A stretch of 64,000 nt of DNA, taken from Roseateles aquatilis. GTDB lineage: Bacteria > Pseudomonadota > Gammaproteobacteria > Burkholderiales > Burkholderiaceae_C. Location: assembly GCF_002205645.1 (NCBI RefSeq), contig NZ_NIOF01000007.1, forward strand, positions 248,001 through 312,000. The letters are read 5' to 3'. Made by a program: the position numbers and the translations under genes. Below are positions 45,417 through 52,434 of this stretch, piece after piece. The notes beneath the pieces are model-generated. The model was not told the DNA's origin and did no database searches. It was given only the letters and a program-made list of their open reading frames with translations. The stretch's first letter is position 1. Every line of letters starts with the position of its first letter.

Positions 45417-46211
45417 TCACTGTCCCTTGAACAGCCCCTGAAACTGCCTCGACACCGGCAGTTTTTCCGCGTGACCCTTCATCGAGAGCTGCATCGTGTT
45501 CTCGTCCACCCGCGTGGCGCTGGCGACGAAGCGGCTGTTGACCAGCACCGACCGATGGACCTGCCAGAACACGGACGGGTCGAGGTCGACCAGCAGCTCC
45601 TTCAACGCGGTGCGGATCCACGCCTCGCCGTCCCGATGGACGACGCGGGTATATCGGCTGTCGCTTTGGAAAAAGAGGATGTCGTCGGGCGAGATCAACT
45701 GGATCTCGCGGCCCTGACTCGCCTGGATGGGCCGCATCGCACCGCGCTGCTGTGGCAGCAGTTGACGCAGCAGTTCGAGCGTGCCGGGCGGCATCGTGGG
45801 CGCCGCGGGCGTGGCCGGCTCCGACTCGGCATTCGCCGCCTGTCGCTGTCGCAGCCGCTGCAGGCATTGCTGCAGGCGCGCATCCTCGACCGGCTTCATC
45901 ACGTAATCGACCGCGCCGGCCTCGAACGCCGACAGCGCGTGATCGCCATAGGCGGTGACGAACACCACCTGCGGCGGCTCCGCCAGCTGGGCCAGCCGCT
46001 GTGCGACCTCCAGCCCCGACAGCCCCGGCATGCGGATGTCCAGGAAACACAGCTGCGGCTCCAGCGCCAGGCAGTCATCCCACGCATCGACGCCGTTGAC
46101 GCTGGCGGCCACCAACTCCAGCTCCGGCGCCAACCGTGCGAGCGCGGATCGCAGTTGCTCGCGCGGACCTTCCTCGTCGTCGGCGATGAGCGTGCGGATC
46201 GTCGTGGTCAT
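45417..46211 (-). CDS. LytTR-family response regulator
   Basis: A 264-residue two-component regulator. The receiver domain (1-120) carries the acidic pocket IADDEE and the phospho-acceptor Asp58 in CFLDIRMPG, with VMKPVEDARL containing the conserved Lys. A Pro/Ala linker (about 130-155) leads to a LytTR DNA-binding domain (REIQLISPDDILFFQSDSRY, then VHRSVLVNSRFV). Such regulators (AlgR, LytR, YehT type) bind paired direct repeats. The start is the ATG at 46211. It follows the histidine kinase gene by 22 bp on the same strand. Confidence 0.92.
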   Translation of the reverse strand: MTTTIRTLIADDEEGPREQLRSALARLAPELELVAASVNGVDAWDDCLALEPQLCFLDIRMPGLSGLEVAQRLAQLAEPPQVVFVTAYGDHALSAFEAGAVDYVMKPVEDARLQQCLQRLRQRQAANAESEPATPAAPTMPPGTLELLRQLLPQQRGAMRPIQASQGREIQLISPDDILFFQSDSRYTRVVHRDGEAWIRTALKELLVDLDPSVFWQVHRSVLVNSRFVASATRVDENTMQLSMKGHAEKLPVSRQFQGLFKGQ

Positions 46212-46233: not shown

Positions 46234-47331
46234 TCAGGATGCCGATGCCGGCACTTCGATCCAGGCCAGGCATCCAGGGGCGTCGGCCGTGCCGGGCTCC
46301 AGCCCCAGCCGCGCCTGATCGCCGAACTGCGCCTGCAGTCGTTCTCGTGTGTTGGCAAGTCCGAGGCCTTCGCAAGCACCGGGCGCCAGGCCCTGCCCGC
46401 CATCCCGCACCTCCAGCCGGATCCGCCCGCCCACCGCCTGGGCGCTCACGGCGATGTGGCCGCCGCGCAGGCTGGGCTCGATGCCGTGGGTGATGGCGTT
46501 CTCCGCGAGCGTCAGCAGGGTGCCCGGCGGCAGGCTCGCCGACGGCAGCGCAGCCTGCGCCGCCGCGTCCAGCTCGAGCGACCAGGTCAGCCGCTGCCCC
46601 AATCGGGCCTGCATGATGTCCAGATAACTGCGCACGATCTGCAGCTCCTGATCGAGCGGCAACCGGTCCTGCTCGAACATCGGCAGCGTCGCGCGCAGAT
46701 AGCGGGTCAGCGAGCGCAGCATCGGTCCGGCGCGCTCGTCGCGCGTGTCGACCCAGTGCTGCAGCGACGCCAGCGTATTGAAGAGGAAATGCGGCTGGAT
46801 CTGCGCCGTCGCCAGCCGCTGCGCCATCGCGATGCGTTCCTGCTGCGCGTCCAGCTCCGCCAGCCGTCCGGCGATCTGCTGCGTCCGGTACAGCGTCAGG
46901 AACCACCAGGACGACACCATCAGCGTCATGCCGCCCGCGCCGAACGGCAGCAGGTCGCGCGCCTCTTCCCGGAAGCCGACCTTCACCAGGATCGAGGTGA
47001 TCAGCACCATCAGCACGCTCAGCCCGATGGCCGCGGCGTTGAAGCGCGTGCGTGTCGGCCGCTTCCACAGCGATCGCGCGACGATCAGTCCCAGCACGGC
47101 CATCGCCAGGGCGCCGGTCAGGATCACATGCGCCAGGCCCTTGGGCAGCACCGTGTAGAAGACCAGGGCCAGCACCAGCACGTTGCAGATCACGTAGCAA
47201 TCGATGCCGGTGGACCAGCCCAACAGCCCGGAGCGCACCATTTCCTCGTCGGTGAAGACACGCCGCGGACCGGGAAAGACCCACTGGGTCCAGTCGAAGC
47301 GGATGGCGTCGGGGGCGCTGCTCGAAGTCAT
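46234..47331 (-). CDS. LytS/YpdA-type sensor histidine kinase
   Basis: A 365-residue membrane kinase with four hydrophobic spans (about 42-60, 66-86, 98-118, 128-148), a short coiled coil, and a His_kinase (PF06580) block AQIQPHFLFNTLASLQ with the phospho-acceptor His181. The HATPase part has LAENAITHGIEPSLRGG and DGGQGLAPG. There is no large sensory domain outside the membrane, so the signal is probably sensed by the membrane part. The partner regulator lies immediately downstream. The ATG at 47331 begins MTSSSAPDAI. Confidence 0.92.
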   Translation of the reverse strand: MTSSSAPDAIRFDWTQWVFPGPRRVFTDEEMVRSGLLGWSTGIDCYVICNVLVLALVFYTVLPKGLAHVILTGALAMAVLGLIVARSLWKRPTRTRFNAAAIGLSVLMVLITSILVKVGFREEARDLLPFGAGGMTLMVSSWWFLTLYRTQQIAGRLAELDAQQERIAMAQRLATAQIQPHFLFNTLASLQHWVDTRDERAGPMLRSLTRYLRATLPMFEQDRLPLDQELQIVRSYLDIMQARLGQRLTWSLELDAAAQAALPSASLPPGTLLTLAENAITHGIEPSLRGGHIAVSAQAVGGRIRLEVRDGGQGLAPGACEGLGLANTRERLQAQFGDQARLGLEPGTADAPGCLAWIEVPASAS

Positions 47332-47477: not shown

Positions 47478-48278
47478 TCAGGCCCGCGGGGCGAGCAGCC
47501 GGGTCATCGGCAGCGGCGCGATGCCCAGCCGATGCAGCTCGGCGGCGAAGCGGGGCGAGGCCAGCAGCTCGTACTCCCACTGGCGGGCCTCGGCGATCGG
47601 ATCACCGGGCACTGGGCCGGCGGCGGGGTGGCACATCAGCAGATCGCCATCCCCGCTGACGTGCAGCCAGCCCTGCAGCCGCGCCGCGTAGCGGGCCGCA
47701 TCGCCGTCGAAGTCGTAGACGCCCAGCAACCGCCGGTTCTGCCGGATGCCCAGCAGCGCGGCACGACGCGACAACGAACGCTGCCCCAGCGCCTGGATCA
47801 GCGCCGGCTTGAAGCCCGCCGTGCCTCGCCGGGTCGACCGCAGCCAGGGCCGGCGATGAGGGTAGCGGTCCGCCAGCACATCCAGCAGCGCGTCACGCAC
47901 GCGCGGGAACTGATGCACATGCTGATGGCCGTCGACATAGTCCGGCGCCCGCCCCATCGCCGCCTCGAATGCGTCCAGCTGCGCCGTGACCTCGCGTCGC
48001 AACTCGGCCTCCGTGCCGGCGCCGGCCAACAACCAGCGGAGCAGGCCGCGCGGCGCCAGCGTCAGCGGAAACTGCGTCAGGTCCAGGTGCAGCCCGACAT
48101 CGACGCGGTCCGGCGCCACCTCCGCGAGCGCCCGGGCGCCGTCGCGCCAGGCCGGCGCGCCGACCATCGCGCCGGTCGCCTGCAGCCGGCCGAGCTGGAT
48201 CAGCCGCAGCACGGCGGCGTTCACCAACGGGTGCAGCCCGAAATCGTCGGCGCAGACGCACAGGCCGCGACGGCTCAT
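47478..48278 (-). CDS. YdjC/ChbG-HpnK family deacetylase, NaxD-like
   Basis: A 266-residue metal-dependent deacetylase. The metal-binding ADDFGLHPLVNAAV near 9-22 and the HxxxH-like VDGHQHVHQFPRV near 113-125 are the family hallmarks. In Francisella and Bordetella, NaxD-type members remove the N-acetyl group from undecaprenyl-phosphate-linked GalNAc or GlcNAc before transfer to lipid A. The ATG at 48278 overlaps the upstream glycosyltransferase stop (ATGA). Third gene of a leftward set with a polyprenyl-phosphate glycosyltransferase and an ArnT-like transferase, it therefore probably provides the free-amine sugar donor. Confidence 0.87.
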   Translation of the reverse strand: MSRRGLCVCADDFGLHPLVNAAVLRLIQLGRLQATGAMVGAPAWRDGARALAEVAPDRVDVGLHLDLTQFPLTLAPRGLLRWLLAGAGTEAELRREVTAQLDAFEAAMGRAPDYVDGHQHVHQFPRVRDALLDVLADRYPHRRPWLRSTRRGTAGFKPALIQALGQRSLSRRAALLGIRQNRRLLGVYDFDGDAARYAARLQGWLHVSGDGDLLMCHPAAGPVPGDPIAEARQWEYELLASPRFAAELHRLGIAPLPMTRLLAPRA

Positions 48279-49831
48279 CGCGGGCAGCCGACCATCGTCG
48301 GCGTGATGCGCCACAACGAGACCCCGCGCCGCGTCGCCACCGCCGTCAGGTCCTTCAACCACGGTGTTCCCGGCGCATCGCGCGAAGCGGCGATCACCCA
48401 GTTCACCGGGTGCGCGCACAACGCGGCGGGCAAGGTCTTCTCGTCGATCAGCATCGGCGCGATGCCGCCGGGCGCGAACTTGCGGGTCTCGGCGAGTTCC
48501 TTGCGCCAGTTGTCACGGGCCAGCACATCGGGATCGTTCCAGTCCTCGGCGACCGTGATGGGCGCGGTCAGCCGGGCGTAGAACGGCAGGTCGTAGTCGA
48601 AGCGGCCCACGGAGACGATGGGTTCGCCCGGCGCGCGCCAGGCGGCCAGGTCCTGCGCCAGCTCCCGCGTGTTGCGGTGCGGCTCCATGGCCAGCGTCAG
48701 CACCACGCCGACGCCGATCAGCGCGCACAGGGCCAGCGTCGCGCCCGCCCAGCGCCGCATCGCGCGCGATGCCGGCTGCAGGCGCCGCCAGCCCAGCGCC
48801 GTCAGCGCCGCGATCGGCGGCACCGCCGGCAGGATGTAACCGACCAGCTTGGACTGCGGCATCGAGAAGAACACCACCACCACGCCCAGCCACCACAGCA
48901 GCAGCGGCACCAGGCGGTGGGGATCCGGCTCGGGGGCCTCCGACGCGGCGCGCCGCGGTCCGGCCCAGCCCAGCGCCAGCCACGGCAGCACCGGCAGGTG
49001 GAAGGCCAGCAGCACGGCCGGGAAAAACCAGAACGGCTGCACGTTGTTGAAGCCGCCGCTGGCGAAACGCTGCAAGTGCTGCACGACGAAGAAGTAATGC
49101 AGGAAGTCCGGGAAGCGCCGCTGCATCGCCAGGTACCACGGCACCGCCACCACCAGCATCGCGACCAGGCCGGGCAGCCAGAGCAGGCCCAGGATCTCGC
49201 GCCAGCGCCGCTGGGTCGCCAGCCAGCCCAGCACGATCAGGCCCGGCAGCACGATGCCGATCAGCCCCTTGGCCAGGATGCCGACACCCGCCATCGCATA
49301 CGCGGCCATCAGCACCGCCCGCCACGGCAGGCCGTGCCGGCGCCGCAGCACCGCGTCGGCGGTCAACGCCACCGTCGCGGCGATGCACCCCGCCACCAGC
49401 ATGTCCAGGTTGGCGTATTGGGAGCCGAGGAAGAACATCGGCAGCGCCAACACCACCAGCAGCGCGGCACGCGCGGCCGACGCACCGGCCCAGCGGTACA
49501 GCAGCCCGAACAGGCTGATCGCGGCCAGCCAGGCGCCCAGCACCGGCGCGGCGCGGGCCGCCAACTGGTTGACGCCCAGCAGCGTCATCGCCACCTCGGT
49601 GATCCAGTAGAACAGCGGCGGCTTGTGGAAGAACGGCTGGCCGTTGAGCGTCGGCACCAGCCACTCGCCGCCGCGGATCGCCTCCCACGCGACGCCGACG
49701 TAGCGCCCTTCGTCCGGCAGCTCCAGCGCCCGCAGCCCCGCGCTCCAGGCCAGCCACAGCAGCGCGCCGATCAGCGCGAGCGCGAGCTCCCGGCGCGGCA
49801 CGCGCGCCGGCCCCATGAACGCGGCGCTCAT
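48275..49831 (-). CDS. ArnT-like lipid A glycosyltransferase (GT83/PMT superfamily)
   Basis: A 518-residue polytopic membrane protein. The conserved acidic first loop LELPDEGRYVGVAWEAIRGG followed by LNGQPFFHKPPLFYWIT is diagnostic of ArnT-like transferases. About 12 spans follow, then a periplasmic C-terminal domain of 100 or so residues. Such enzymes move an amino sugar from undecaprenyl phosphate to lipid A, lowering its negative charge and giving resistance to cationic peptides. The start ATG at 49831 and the stop at 48275 overlap both neighbours by 4 nt, so the three genes form one coupled operon. Confidence 0.88.
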   Translation of the reverse strand: MSAAFMGPARVPRRELALALIGALLWLAWSAGLRALELPDEGRYVGVAWEAIRGGEWLVPTLNGQPFFHKPPLFYWITEVAMTLLGVNQLAARAAPVLGAWLAAISLFGLLYRWAGASAARAALLVVLALPMFFLGSQYANLDMLVAGCIAATVALTADAVLRRRHGLPWRAVLMAAYAMAGVGILAKGLIGIVLPGLIVLGWLATQRRWREILGLLWLPGLVAMLVVAVPWYLAMQRRFPDFLHYFFVVQHLQRFASGGFNNVQPFWFFPAVLLAFHLPVLPWLALGWAGPRRAASEAPEPDPHRLVPLLLWWLGVVVVFFSMPQSKLVGYILPAVPPIAALTALGWRRLQPASRAMRRWAGATLALCALIGVGVVLTLAMEPHRNTRELAQDLAAWRAPGEPIVSVGRFDYDLPFYARLTAPITVAEDWNDPDVLARDNWRKELAETRKFAPGGIAPMLIDEKTLPAALCAHPVNWVIAASRDAPGTPWLKDLTAVATRRGVSLWRITPTMVGCPR

Positions 49832-50904
49832 GCGCGGCGCTCCGGCAGGCCTTGGCCGAGCTGCTCGCGCACGACGAACAGCGGGCGTCCCTTGACCTCC
49901 TCGAAGATGCGGCCGATGTATTCGCCCAGGATGCCCAGCGACACCAGTTGCAGGCCCGAGAACAGCATCAGCCCGACGACGATCGTCGTCCAGCCGCTGA
50001 CGTTGTGGCCGTAGAGCAGGTACATCGCGGTCAGGTAGCCGCCGTAGAGCAGGGCCGGCAGCGCCAGCAGGATGCCGCAGGCGCTGACCGCGCGCAGCGG
50101 CCAGTTCGTGAACGCCGTCAGGCCGTCGAGCGCCAGCTGCGCCAGCCGCAGCGGCCGGAACTTGCTGCGCCCATGCGCGCGCGGCGCCGGCGTGTACGGC
50201 AGGGCATACGTGGTGAAGCCGACCCAGGCGTACAGGCCCTTCATGAAGCGGTTGCGTTCGGGCAACGCGAGCAGCGTGTCCACGACGCGGCGGTCCATCA
50301 GGCGGAAGTCGCCCGCGTCGGCCGGGACCTCGAAGCGCGCGCCGCGGTTGAGCAGACTGTAGAAGCCGCGGCTGCCCCAGCGCTTGAGCGGGCCTTCGTC
50401 GTCGCGGGACTCGCGCACGGCGTAGACCATGTCGGCGCCGCGCCGCCAGGCGGTCAGGAAGGACGGGATCAACGCGGGATCGTGCTGCAGGTCCGCGTCC
50501 ATCATGAGCACCACTTCGCCCTGCGCGGCGCCGAGGCCGGCGCTCAGCGCCGCTTCCTTGCCGAAGTTCCGGGACAACCGCAGCGCCCGCAGGCCGGGCT
50601 GGCGACTCCAGCGCCGCAGCAGTTCGCCGCTGCCGTCGCTGCTGCCGTCGTCGATGACGAGGATCTCCCAGGCCTGGATGGCGCCGTCGGCACGACAGGC
50701 GTCCAGCGTCGTGCGCAGCCGCGGCAGGAGGTCGACGAGGCTGGCGGCCTCGTTGAAGCTGGGGATGATGCAGGACAGTGACGGCGCGGTGCGCCGGTCC
50801 GTCGGATCGCTGGGCGCCAGATCCGGAGACAAGGCCGTCGCGGCACCGCCGTCGAACGGGCGCCCCCACGGCGAGCCACGGTCGGGATGGAAAGTGACAT
50901 GCAT
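49828..50904 (-). CDS. GT2 polyprenyl-phosphate glycosyltransferase (ArnC/DPM1-like)
   Basis: A 358-residue enzyme that links a sugar from its UDP form to undecaprenyl phosphate on the cytoplasmic face. The GT-A domain has LSCIIPSFNEAASLVDLLP near 43-61, IDDGSSDGSGELL, and the metal-binding MMDADLQHDP near 133-142. Two C-terminal membrane helices with LGILGEYIGRIFEEVKGRP complete the GtrB/ArnC/FlmF2 pattern. The first 40 residues look like a variable leader. The ATG at 50904 has GGAGGG directly adjacent, unusually close. First gene of the lipid A-type operon, downstream of the 11-bp repeat array. Confidence 0.9.
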   Translation of the reverse strand: MHVTFHPDRGSPWGRPFDGGAATALSPDLAPSDPTDRRTAPSLSCIIPSFNEAASLVDLLPRLRTTLDACRADGAIQAWEILVIDDGSSDGSGELLRRWSRQPGLRALRLSRNFGKEAALSAGLGAAQGEVVLMMDADLQHDPALIPSFLTAWRRGADMVYAVRESRDDEGPLKRWGSRGFYSLLNRGARFEVPADAGDFRLMDRRVVDTLLALPERNRFMKGLYAWVGFTTYALPYTPAPRAHGRSKFRPLRLAQLALDGLTAFTNWPLRAVSACGILLALPALLYGGYLTAMYLLYGHNVSGWTTIVVGLMLFSGLQLVSLGILGEYIGRIFEEVKGRPLFVVREQLGQGLPERRA

Positions 50905-50925
50905 CCCTCCAGCGTGGCGGCGGTG

Positions 50926-50957
50926 CCTGAGCGGATCCTGAAGATTGCTGTCCTGAA
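50926..50957. promoter_or_regulatory. Proximal CCTGAA/G half-site cluster
   Basis: CCTGAG (50926-50931), CCTGAA (50937-50942) and CCTGAA (50952-50957) lie on the + strand, the first two 11 bp apart and the third 15 bp on. They sit between the distal array and the glycosyltransferase start, in opposite orientation to that array. Confidence 0.5.
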
Positions 50958-51007
50958 GCTGTCCGCAGACCGTCAGAAATGTGAAACCGGGCGAGGCCCG
51001 AAGGGTA

Positions 51008-51046
51008 TTCAGGAAATCTTCAGGTGGGGCTCAGGCGGGATTCAGG
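51008..51046 (-). promoter_or_regulatory. Four direct repeats at 11-bp spacing, response-regulator-like operator
   Basis: Half-sites on the minus strand start exactly 11 bp apart: TTCAGG at 51008, 51019 and 51041 and CTCAGG at 51030 on the + strand (CCTGAA/CCTGAG on the minus strand). Regular 11-bp direct repeats are the hallmark of OmpR/PhoB-type regulators, one helical turn per half-site. The array lies 104-142 bp upstream of the lipid A-type operon start and just after the mnmE stop codon. Confidence 0.65.
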
Positions 51047-51057
51047 TGGCGACGCGG

Positions 51058-52434
51058 TCATTTCCCGATGCAGAACCTGCTGAAGATCTCCCCCAGCAGA
51101 TCGTCCGCCGTGAACGCGCCGGTGATCTCGCCGAGCGCGTCGTGCGCCATTCGAAGCTCCTCCGCCATCAGGTCCAGCGCCGGCGGCTGCGTCTCGGCCT
51201 GCAGCAACGCCAGTTCGATGTGCTCGCGCGTGCGGCGCAGTGCCTGCACGTGACGCTCTCGGGCGATGAACAGGCCCTCCGGCACCGCGTGCCAGCCGAC
51301 CTGCCGCAGCAGCCGCTGTCGCAGCCCATCCAGGCCCTCGCCGGTCTTCGCGGACAGGGTGAGCGCGCCATCCGGCAGCGTCGCCGGAACCTGCGCGTCG
51401 GCCTTGTTGTAGACCTGCAGGATGCGACTTGCATCGACGCTGGCGAGACGCGAGCGGATCTCCGCGTCCTCGGCCTCGTAGTCGGCATGGCCGACGCGCG
51501 TCAGGTCGTGCAGGAACAGCACCACGTCGGCGTCCGCGATCGCGTCCCAGCTGCGTGCGACGCCGATGCGCTCGACCTCGTCCTCGGTGTCGCGCAGGCC
51601 GGCCGTGTCGCTGATGTGCAGCGGCACCCCTTCGATCTGGATCGTCTGGCTCAGCTTGTCCCGCGTCGTGCCGGGAATGGGCGTGACGATCGCCAGCTCC
51701 GCGCCGGCCAGCGCGTTCAGCAACGAGCTCTTGCCGACATTCGGCTGCCCCGCCAGCACGACCTTGATGCCCTCGCGCAGGATCGCGCCCTGACGGCTGC
51801 GATCGACCAGCGTGTCCATCCGCGCCAGCAGCCGACGCAATTTGCCGAGCGCGTCGGCCTGCTCCAGGAAGTCGATCTCTTCCTCGGGGAAGTCCAGCGT
51901 CGCCTCGACCAGCATGCGCAGCTGGATCAACGCGTCGCGCAAGCCGTCGACCTCGCCGCTCAAGGCGCCGGCCAGCGCACGACCGGCGCTGCGGGCGGCG
52001 GCCTCGGTGCTGGCGTCGATCAGGTCGGCCACCGCCTCGGCCTGCGCCAGGTCGAGCTTGCCGTTGAGGAACGCACGGCGCGTGAACTCACCGGGCTCGG
52101 CCAGGCGCATGCGCAGCGCGGGATCCGCCTCCAGGCAGCGCGCGAGCAGCAGCTGCAGCACCACCGGTCCGCCGTGGGCCTGCAGTTCCAGGACATGTTC
52201 GCCGGTGTAGGAATGCGGCGCGGGGAAGAACAGCGCCAGACCGTGATCGATCGCCTCACCCTGCGCGCTGCGCAAGGGCAGGTAGGTGGCTTCGCGCGGC
52301 TTCAGCGCGCGGCCGCAGATCGCCATCACCAGCGGGGTCAGGTCTTGCGGCGCGGACACGCGCACGATGCCCACCGCGCCGCGTCCGGGCGCGGTGGCGA
52401 TGGCGGCGATGGGATCCTGGTGTCGGGACAGCAT
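51058..52434 (-). CDS. mnmE: tRNA modification GTPase MnmE
   Basis: A 458-residue GTPase that, with MnmG, forms 5-carboxymethylaminomethyluridine at tRNA position 34. An N-terminal tetrahydrofolate-binding domain (1-120, starting [19 protein letters not shown]), a helical domain, and a G domain with G1 GQPNVGKSS near 229-237, PGTTRD, DTAGLR and NKAD are visible. The C-terminus is the invariant FCIGK whose Cys is functionally important. The ATG at 52434 is used. It lies at the end of the rpmH-rnpA-yidD-yidC-mnmE block, separated from yidC by two terminators, so it probably has its own promoter. Confidence 0.97.

Follow-up and report, generated by a model that had tools for sequence, protein, structure and literature searches.

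Phased arrays of the half-site TTCAG, conserved across the genus, sharing one promoter geometry and linked to the gene of an OmpR-family response regulator, are found in the genome of Roseateles aquatilis, both inside and outside a stretch of 64,000 nucleotides (hereafter the window). The best explanation, held with good confidence from sequence comparison, is a PmrA-type regulon in which the half-site is TTCAG instead of TTAAG. The PmrA-like regulator most likely controls a lipid A modification operon through an operon-facing array (array 2), and a second array further upstream (array 1) is probably auxiliary. The features of the window are as follows.

45417..46211, minus strand: LytTR response regulator, downstream neighbour, disfavoured as binder of the arrays
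46234..47331, minus strand: LytS-type histidine kinase, downstream neighbour, also present in the relative G003 and absent from the G001, G004, G006 and G009 loci read
47478..48278, minus strand: YdjC-family deacetylase (LgmC-like), start MSRRGLC placed by eye, the listed open reading frame reaching 48419
48275..49831, minus strand: ArnT-like PMT-family transferase (LgmB-like), start MSAAFMG placed by eye
49828..50904, minus strand: ArnC-like glycosyltransferase of family 2 (LgmA-like), encoded by the first operon gene
50911..50916, minus strand: putative -10 hexamer CACGCT, its first base 15 nt past the first base of the last half-site, at the offset-15 score peak
50926..50964, minus strand: array 2, GGACAG, GGACAG, TTCAG and CTCAG in 11-bp phase, facing the operon
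51008..51046, minus strand: array 1, four CCTGAR half-sites at 11-bp spacing, from direct reading, dinucleotide shuffles and comparison with G003
51058..52434, minus strand: mnmE, upstream neighbour, with no match in the 11 kb of G003 read around the operon

Array 1 is the element described in the initial annotation, and its four hexamers, TTCAGG, TTCAGG, CTCAGG and TTCAGG, all start where they were placed, at 51008, 51019, 51030 and 51041. The window contains four matches to YTCAGG-N5-YTCAGG, compared with 0.02 on average over 100 dinucleotide shuffles; three of the matches make up array 1, and the fourth (50926-50942, minus strand) is part of array 2. A genome-wide scan, which had been proposed as a check, places the CCTGAA-type tandem motif above chance. 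The whole R. aquatilis genome (G000; 6,385,736 bases, or 6.39 Mb, in 48 contigs) harbors eight copies of CCTGAR-N5-CCTGAR, four of them at this locus, and the backwards control yields one. The corresponding numbers are 22 versus four for CTGAA-N6-CTGAA and ten versus none for a triple tandem of CTGAR, with three of the ten consisting of a single plain 11-bp tandem repeat. Over 16 genomes of the genus, hand sums give 101 matches to the triple tandem against 10 for the control, with matches in 15 of the 16. These matches represent 63 distinct places by hand count, of which 19 were read along with one CCTGAR-N5-CCTGAR place; some of the places read are plain 11-bp tandem repeats or precede unrelated genes and were excluded from the regulon.

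The array had been described as lying upstream of a lipid A-type operon. The array is real, but when read as TTCAG it is oriented away from the operon, and the second array, which faces the operon at 50926-50964, had not been listed. Array 2 is located between array 1 and the start of the glycosyltransferase gene, in the opposite orientation to array 1, and one extra TTCAGG, out of phase, is present in its region at 50952-50957. A glycosyltransferase orthologue of at least 67% identity is encoded in nine of the 16 genus genomes. One of these, G011, was left out of the array counts as its contig ends inside the gene, leaving eight genomes (R. aquatilis included) with readable upstream DNA. Six of the eight have a TTCAG-type array 2, and the remaining two have TTAAG-type sites, TTAAG-N6-ATCAG in G001 and TTAAG-N6-ATAAG in G006. 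Array 1 is present in two, R. aquatilis and G003. In the comparison of the intergenic region across relatives, a further check that had been proposed, array 2 is the more conserved, and the outcome goes partly against array 1, which is missing from six of the eight; its occurrence in just two is evidence against a general need for it. Outside the genus, upstream stretches were printed for 24 of 80 loci of distant glycosyltransferase relatives, and a TTAAG-type pair was found by pattern in three (L141, L153 and L160) and by eye in L145, where one half-site is weaker. Nine genomes of the wider family hold the regulator described below; three of them encode a glycosyltransferase relative, none with a pair within 330 nt, and six are without such a gene.

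The assignment of the operon to lipid A modification is supported by matches of its products to ArnC-like, ArnT-like and YdjC deacetylase proteins. The best model for the glycosyltransferase is PgfS (240.8, cut-off 500), followed by an ArnC-type model (165.5, cut-off 529), and the second gene is best matched by an ArnT-type model (180.9, cut-off 567). Both scores therefore lie under the cut-offs of the curated Arn models, and the third gene belongs to the YdjC family. The order of genes in the window operon (ArnC-like, ArnT-like, YdjC-type) matches that of the Lgm-type operon of Bordetella, for which the gene order and the single functions of the genes are known. Homologues in Bordetella pseudohinzii (L148) are at 60, 41 and 45%, and homologues of all three genes are also present in Achromobacter insuavis (L151). 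The Bordetella Lgm operon is controlled by BvgAS; unlike it, the window operon has a PmrA-type box upstream. Loss of Lgm in Bordetella removes glucosamine from lipid A, according to passages of PMC11401268.

A candidate for the regulator is encoded outside the window, as the initial annotation had expected on the ground that the window itself holds no OmpR-type regulator. The latter statement is consistent with a tblastn search of the window, in which the one query used, the unlinked regulator, has a best E value of 0.05. The candidate and its array are located in the R. aquatilis genome as follows.

C45:236715-237374: OmpR-family response regulator, 10.6-11.3 kb past the left edge of the window
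C45:236561-236598: four CTGAA repeats at 11 bp, between the PAP2 gene and the regulator gene

The array beside the regulator is ~62 kb from array 1. An orthologue of the regulator, at 77-100% identity, is present in all 16 genus genomes, and in all of them 11-bp TTCAG repeats occupy the region between its gene and a divergent PAP2 gene; four CTGAR half-sites at 11 bp lie upstream of the regulator in 15 genomes and two in G008. The best NCBIfam model for the regulator is PmrA, at 190.7 bits below a cut-off of 330, and the model covers residues 1-215 of a protein with receiver and winged-helix domains over its full length. The best solved structures are those of BasR/PmrA (PDB 8jo2/4s04, residues 1-216). 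The kinase gene downstream of the regulator is best matched by PmrB (76, cut-off 314), and the divergent PAP2 protein by the model 'PAP2 family lipid A phosphatase' (63, cut-off 275). Since regulator, kinase and PAP2 protein all score under their cut-offs, the system is called PmrA-like rather than PmrA.

A different OmpR-family regulator of the same genome, whether QseB-like or a PmrA paralogue, could bind the repeats, with the linked PmrA-like protein a mere neighbour. The genome has 25 further matches to the regulator at E <= 1e-30, and QseB is the second-best model for the regulator at 187.7 bits (cut-off 345). This reading is improbable: the array is fixed beside the linked regulator in 16 of 16 genus genomes, and the R. 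aquatilis paralogue on G000:C22 carries TTAAG-N6-TTAAG, not TTCAG.

The PmrA-like regulator has further candidate targets. A single match to eptA is detected in each of the 16 genus genomes (E <= 1e-60), and TTCAG-N6-TTCAG precedes it in all 16, with two, three and four half-sites in 11, four and one of the genomes, respectively. The original reading of the array as tandem sites of the OmpR/PhoB type is supported. In the wider family, where 29 of 41 non-own eptA matches were read, a strict pair precedes the gene in six of the 29 (three TTAA-type and three TTCA-type) and is absent from 23. Among wider-family genomes that hold the regulator, eptA is without a strict pair in four of five, and the fifth has TTAAG rather than TTCAG. 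A small protein with the C-terminus AQLGMACKF, probably exported, was read in R. aquatilis, G002 and G011, and four perfect half-sites lie upstream of its gene (L100, L102 and L105). Its G002 copy has no NCBIfam match, and the regulon may include the protein as a new member.

The downstream LytTR regulator had been named as an alternative binder of the repeats, as LytTR sites are repeats about two turns apart. It adjoins the operon in both genomes with array 1 (G000 and G003), the only two of the six genus loci read where it does so, and a close match is encoded in all 16 genus genomes, split into two pieces in three of them. The co-occurrence with array 1 is explicable by the shared history of two related genomes. 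The LytTR pair is absent from the 11 kb read around the operon in G001, G004, G006 and G009; none of the eight LytTR loci read (of 16 genomes) has a YTCAG-N6-YTCAG pair; and 11 of the 16 eptA promoters have just two half-sites one turn apart, a misfit to a two-turn repeat. Binding by the LytTR protein is thus disfavoured and considered very improbable.

The candidate promoters share a common geometry. The beginning of the last TTCAG served as the anchor for aligning 41 promoters (16 of eptA, 16 of PAP2, six of the glycosyltransferase and three of the small protein), and each hexamer at offsets from 6 up to 33 was given a score by a simple -10 matrix with hand-set weights. Averaged over all promoters, offset 15 scores -0.97, and the remaining 27 offsets range from -10.3 to -6.25. 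This offset ranks top in every class, with means of 1.40 for eptA, 0.66 for the glycosyltransferase, 0.04 for the small protein and -4.13 for PAP2. The hexamers at this position are TACAAG or TACAAA before eptA and CANNNT before the glycosyltransferase and small protein genes; before PAP2 they are CCCACT in 15 of 16 genomes, which is poor as a -10, and CTTACT in one. Five of the six wider-family eptA genes with a strict pair also have a plausible -10 at offset 15 by eye. A consensus scan of 50800-51200 detects neither a sigma-70 promoter with both hexamers nor an intrinsic terminator. The last half-site of array 2 lies 27 nt from the ATG of the glycosyltransferase in five genomes and 28 nt in one (by eye), a distance that suggests that the operon mRNA may be almost leaderless.

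These data are compatible with a mechanism in which dimers of the phosphorylated regulator would bind head-to-tail on TTCAG-N6-TTCAG. In arrays that face a gene, the last half-site lies 15 nt before a weak -10, and the bound regulator would bring in RNA polymerase, standing in for a -35 element. Array 2 would be the activator site of the glycosyltransferase/ArnT-like/deacetylase operon. Array 1, placed back to back with array 2, could raise local occupancy or permit a larger complex, a role that is less certain. The predicted members of the regulon are the operon, eptA, the PAP2 lipid A phosphatase-like gene, the small-protein gene and, probably, the regulator's own gene. Such a regulon would act in lipid A remodelling, in response to a presumed signal; PmrA is induced by iron, low pH or antimicrobial peptides.

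Array 1 might instead be a relic or an independent element, for example a plus-strand promoter antisense to mnmE, with array 2 working alone. Its absence from six of eight genomes and its outward orientation are in keeping with this, and its offset-15 hexamer in R. aquatilis, GGTCAT, scores -2.7, above the PAP2 mean of -4.1. However, the G003 hexamer is CGCCGC (-12.3), so the two genomes have no -10 in common, and a plus-strand promoter shared by both is disfavoured, though one with GGTCAT may operate in G000 alone. Moreover, G003 keeps the half-sites, and its array 1 lies, as in R. aquatilis, 70 bp from the TTCAG and 81 bp from the CTCAG of array 2, despite different upstream genes, with no MnmE match in the 11-kb stretch around its operon. 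Between the two genomes, the array 1 half-sites are identical at 19 of 20 bases and the bases between them at 18 of 40 (P = 1e-4); a further comparison finds 32 of 35 identical half-site bases versus 65 of 115 elsewhere (P = 6e-5). A relic or independent element is therefore rather unlikely.

Another possibility is that the opposed arrays work at the RNA level, pairing as the arms of a hairpin in the leader. They form a 22-nt inverted repeat with 82% complementarity, and the predicted fold in R. aquatilis has a z of -2.1, with five of 200 shuffles as stable. The predicted G003 fold is without such a long stem (z = -0.8), and the energy becomes ordinary when the half-sites are fixed and the rest is shuffled (z = -0.9, 53 of 300 as stable). 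The hairpin was rejected, as the half-sites account for its energy and the G003 fold lacks the long stem; it is extremely improbable.

The altered box of the PmrA-like system coincides with an altered recognition helix. The PmrA site is YTTAAK-N5-YTTAAK, as given in passages of PMC10927774 and PMC3973317. The PmrA protein of Klebsiella touches bases through Asn188 and Asn196, and its hydrophobic contacts are made by Thr187, Val192 and His195, according to PMC4660055; an earlier PmrA model, in PMC3973317, names His193 and His195 as likely specificity determinants. The textbook site is not what is found here: the sites are TTCAG-N6-TTCAG, and YTTAAG-N5-YTTAAG has one match over the 16 genus genomes. 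All 16 genus orthologues have Ser at both 195 and 196 (Klebsiella numbering). A total of 65 regulators was inspected, consisting of 16 genus orthologues, nine family orthologues, 14 genus paralogues and 26 others. A paired box is present within 280-420 nt upstream of 32 and absent from 32 others, with L096 counted apart. The boxes of all 27 boxed regulators without His195 are TTCA-type, in a set of related rows that does not amount to an independent count and in which the upstream scan of the genus orthologues marked the CTGAR type only. The five boxed regulators with His195 comprise three with TTAA-type boxes (L085 of R. aquatilis, L280 and L288) and two with TTCA-type boxes (L281 and L302). 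L096, a His195 regulator of G006, has a TTAAG-N6-TTAAG pair 664 nt upstream, before the PAP2-like gene that precedes the regulator. G053 is a counter-case, with TTAAG before eptA and yet Phe at position 195 of its regulator orthologue. Asn196 was considered as the residue tied to the box change and set aside, as the family data fit His195 better.

The paralogue on G000:C22 has His-Asn in the recognition helix and TTAAG-N6-TTAAG 155 nt upstream. In G006, a His195 regulator and its kinase are encoded directly before the glycosyltransferase gene, whose box is TTAAG-N6-ATAAG. The lipid A operon has TTCAG in six species of the genus and TTAAG in G006 beside a His195 regulator. Two coexisting PmrA-type regulators may be insulated by the single-base TTAAG/TTCAG change together with loss of His195, the lipid A operon may have swapped regulators in evolution, and the back-to-back arrays of fixed spacing may be a composite control element; this combined proposal is tentative, with chances somewhat under even. 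The natural correspondence between residue 195 and the middle half-site base provides a direct test of specificity change in the OmpR/PhoB family and of the insulation of paralogues.

The system is of a kind already known; what makes it a variant is its changed box, the length of its arrays and their back-to-back arrangement. It resembles the PmrA (BasR) system of Salmonella and Klebsiella in its OmpR/PhoB-family regulator, head-to-tail half-sites, 11-bp spacing and adjoining kinase gene, and in having eptA and a lipid A modification operon as candidate targets by sequence. It differs in the half-site (TTCAG versus YTTAAK), in arrays that reach four half-sites, in Ser for His195 and Asn196 of the helix, and in family scores below the curated cut-offs. 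QseB, the second-best regulator model, is similar in length and domain order, whereas the candidate targets and the linked lipid A phosphatase-like gene indicate a PmrA-type function. PmrA regulons are known mainly from gammaproteobacteria, and a search of open papers by title found none that deals with a PmrA box of the TTCAG type or with a PmrA regulon within this group. The candidate regulon in Burkholderiales is well conserved; it has a box of its own, its promoters show a clear geometry, it includes several lipid A targets, and a search with YTTAAK would miss it.

Several further observations concern related sites. On the plus strand at 50948-50964, within the glycosyltransferase promoter, CTGTCC-N5-CTGTCC resembles the PhoB box, which is CTGTCA-N5-CTGTCA, and the latter sequence is found at the same place in G004, G010 and G015. 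The likeness lies in the two distal half-sites of array 2; unlike a PhoB box, they are reversed relative to the gene and in phase with the TTCAG sites. Joint phosphate control of this promoter is possible.

A PAP2-like membrane protein gene (L096 788-1483; by eye, from the motif SRIYLGASLPGD) lies between the TTAAG pair and the His195 PmrA-like regulator of G006, so that a PAP2 gene adjoins both this regulator and the TTCAG-type one. The second PmrA-like pair of R. aquatilis, with its TTAAG box, is followed by a YdjC-family deacetylase gene (L310, G000:C22:4500-11000), the product of which is 49% identical to the YdjC-family deacetylase of the window. In G004, CTGAATGAAAGCTGAACATCGGCTGAA is located by eye between a kinase gene and a porin-like gene, beside another OmpR-type regulator (L107, G004:C1:1493473-1497499); similar matches near such a regulator are present in G009, G010, G012 and G015, and the sequence is possibly a similar box of a different system. 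In R. aquatilis, CTGAAGCGACGCTGAA is found ~135 bp before an undecaprenyl-diphosphatase-like gene, judged by eye from its N-terminus (L128, G000:C23, site 161157-161172).
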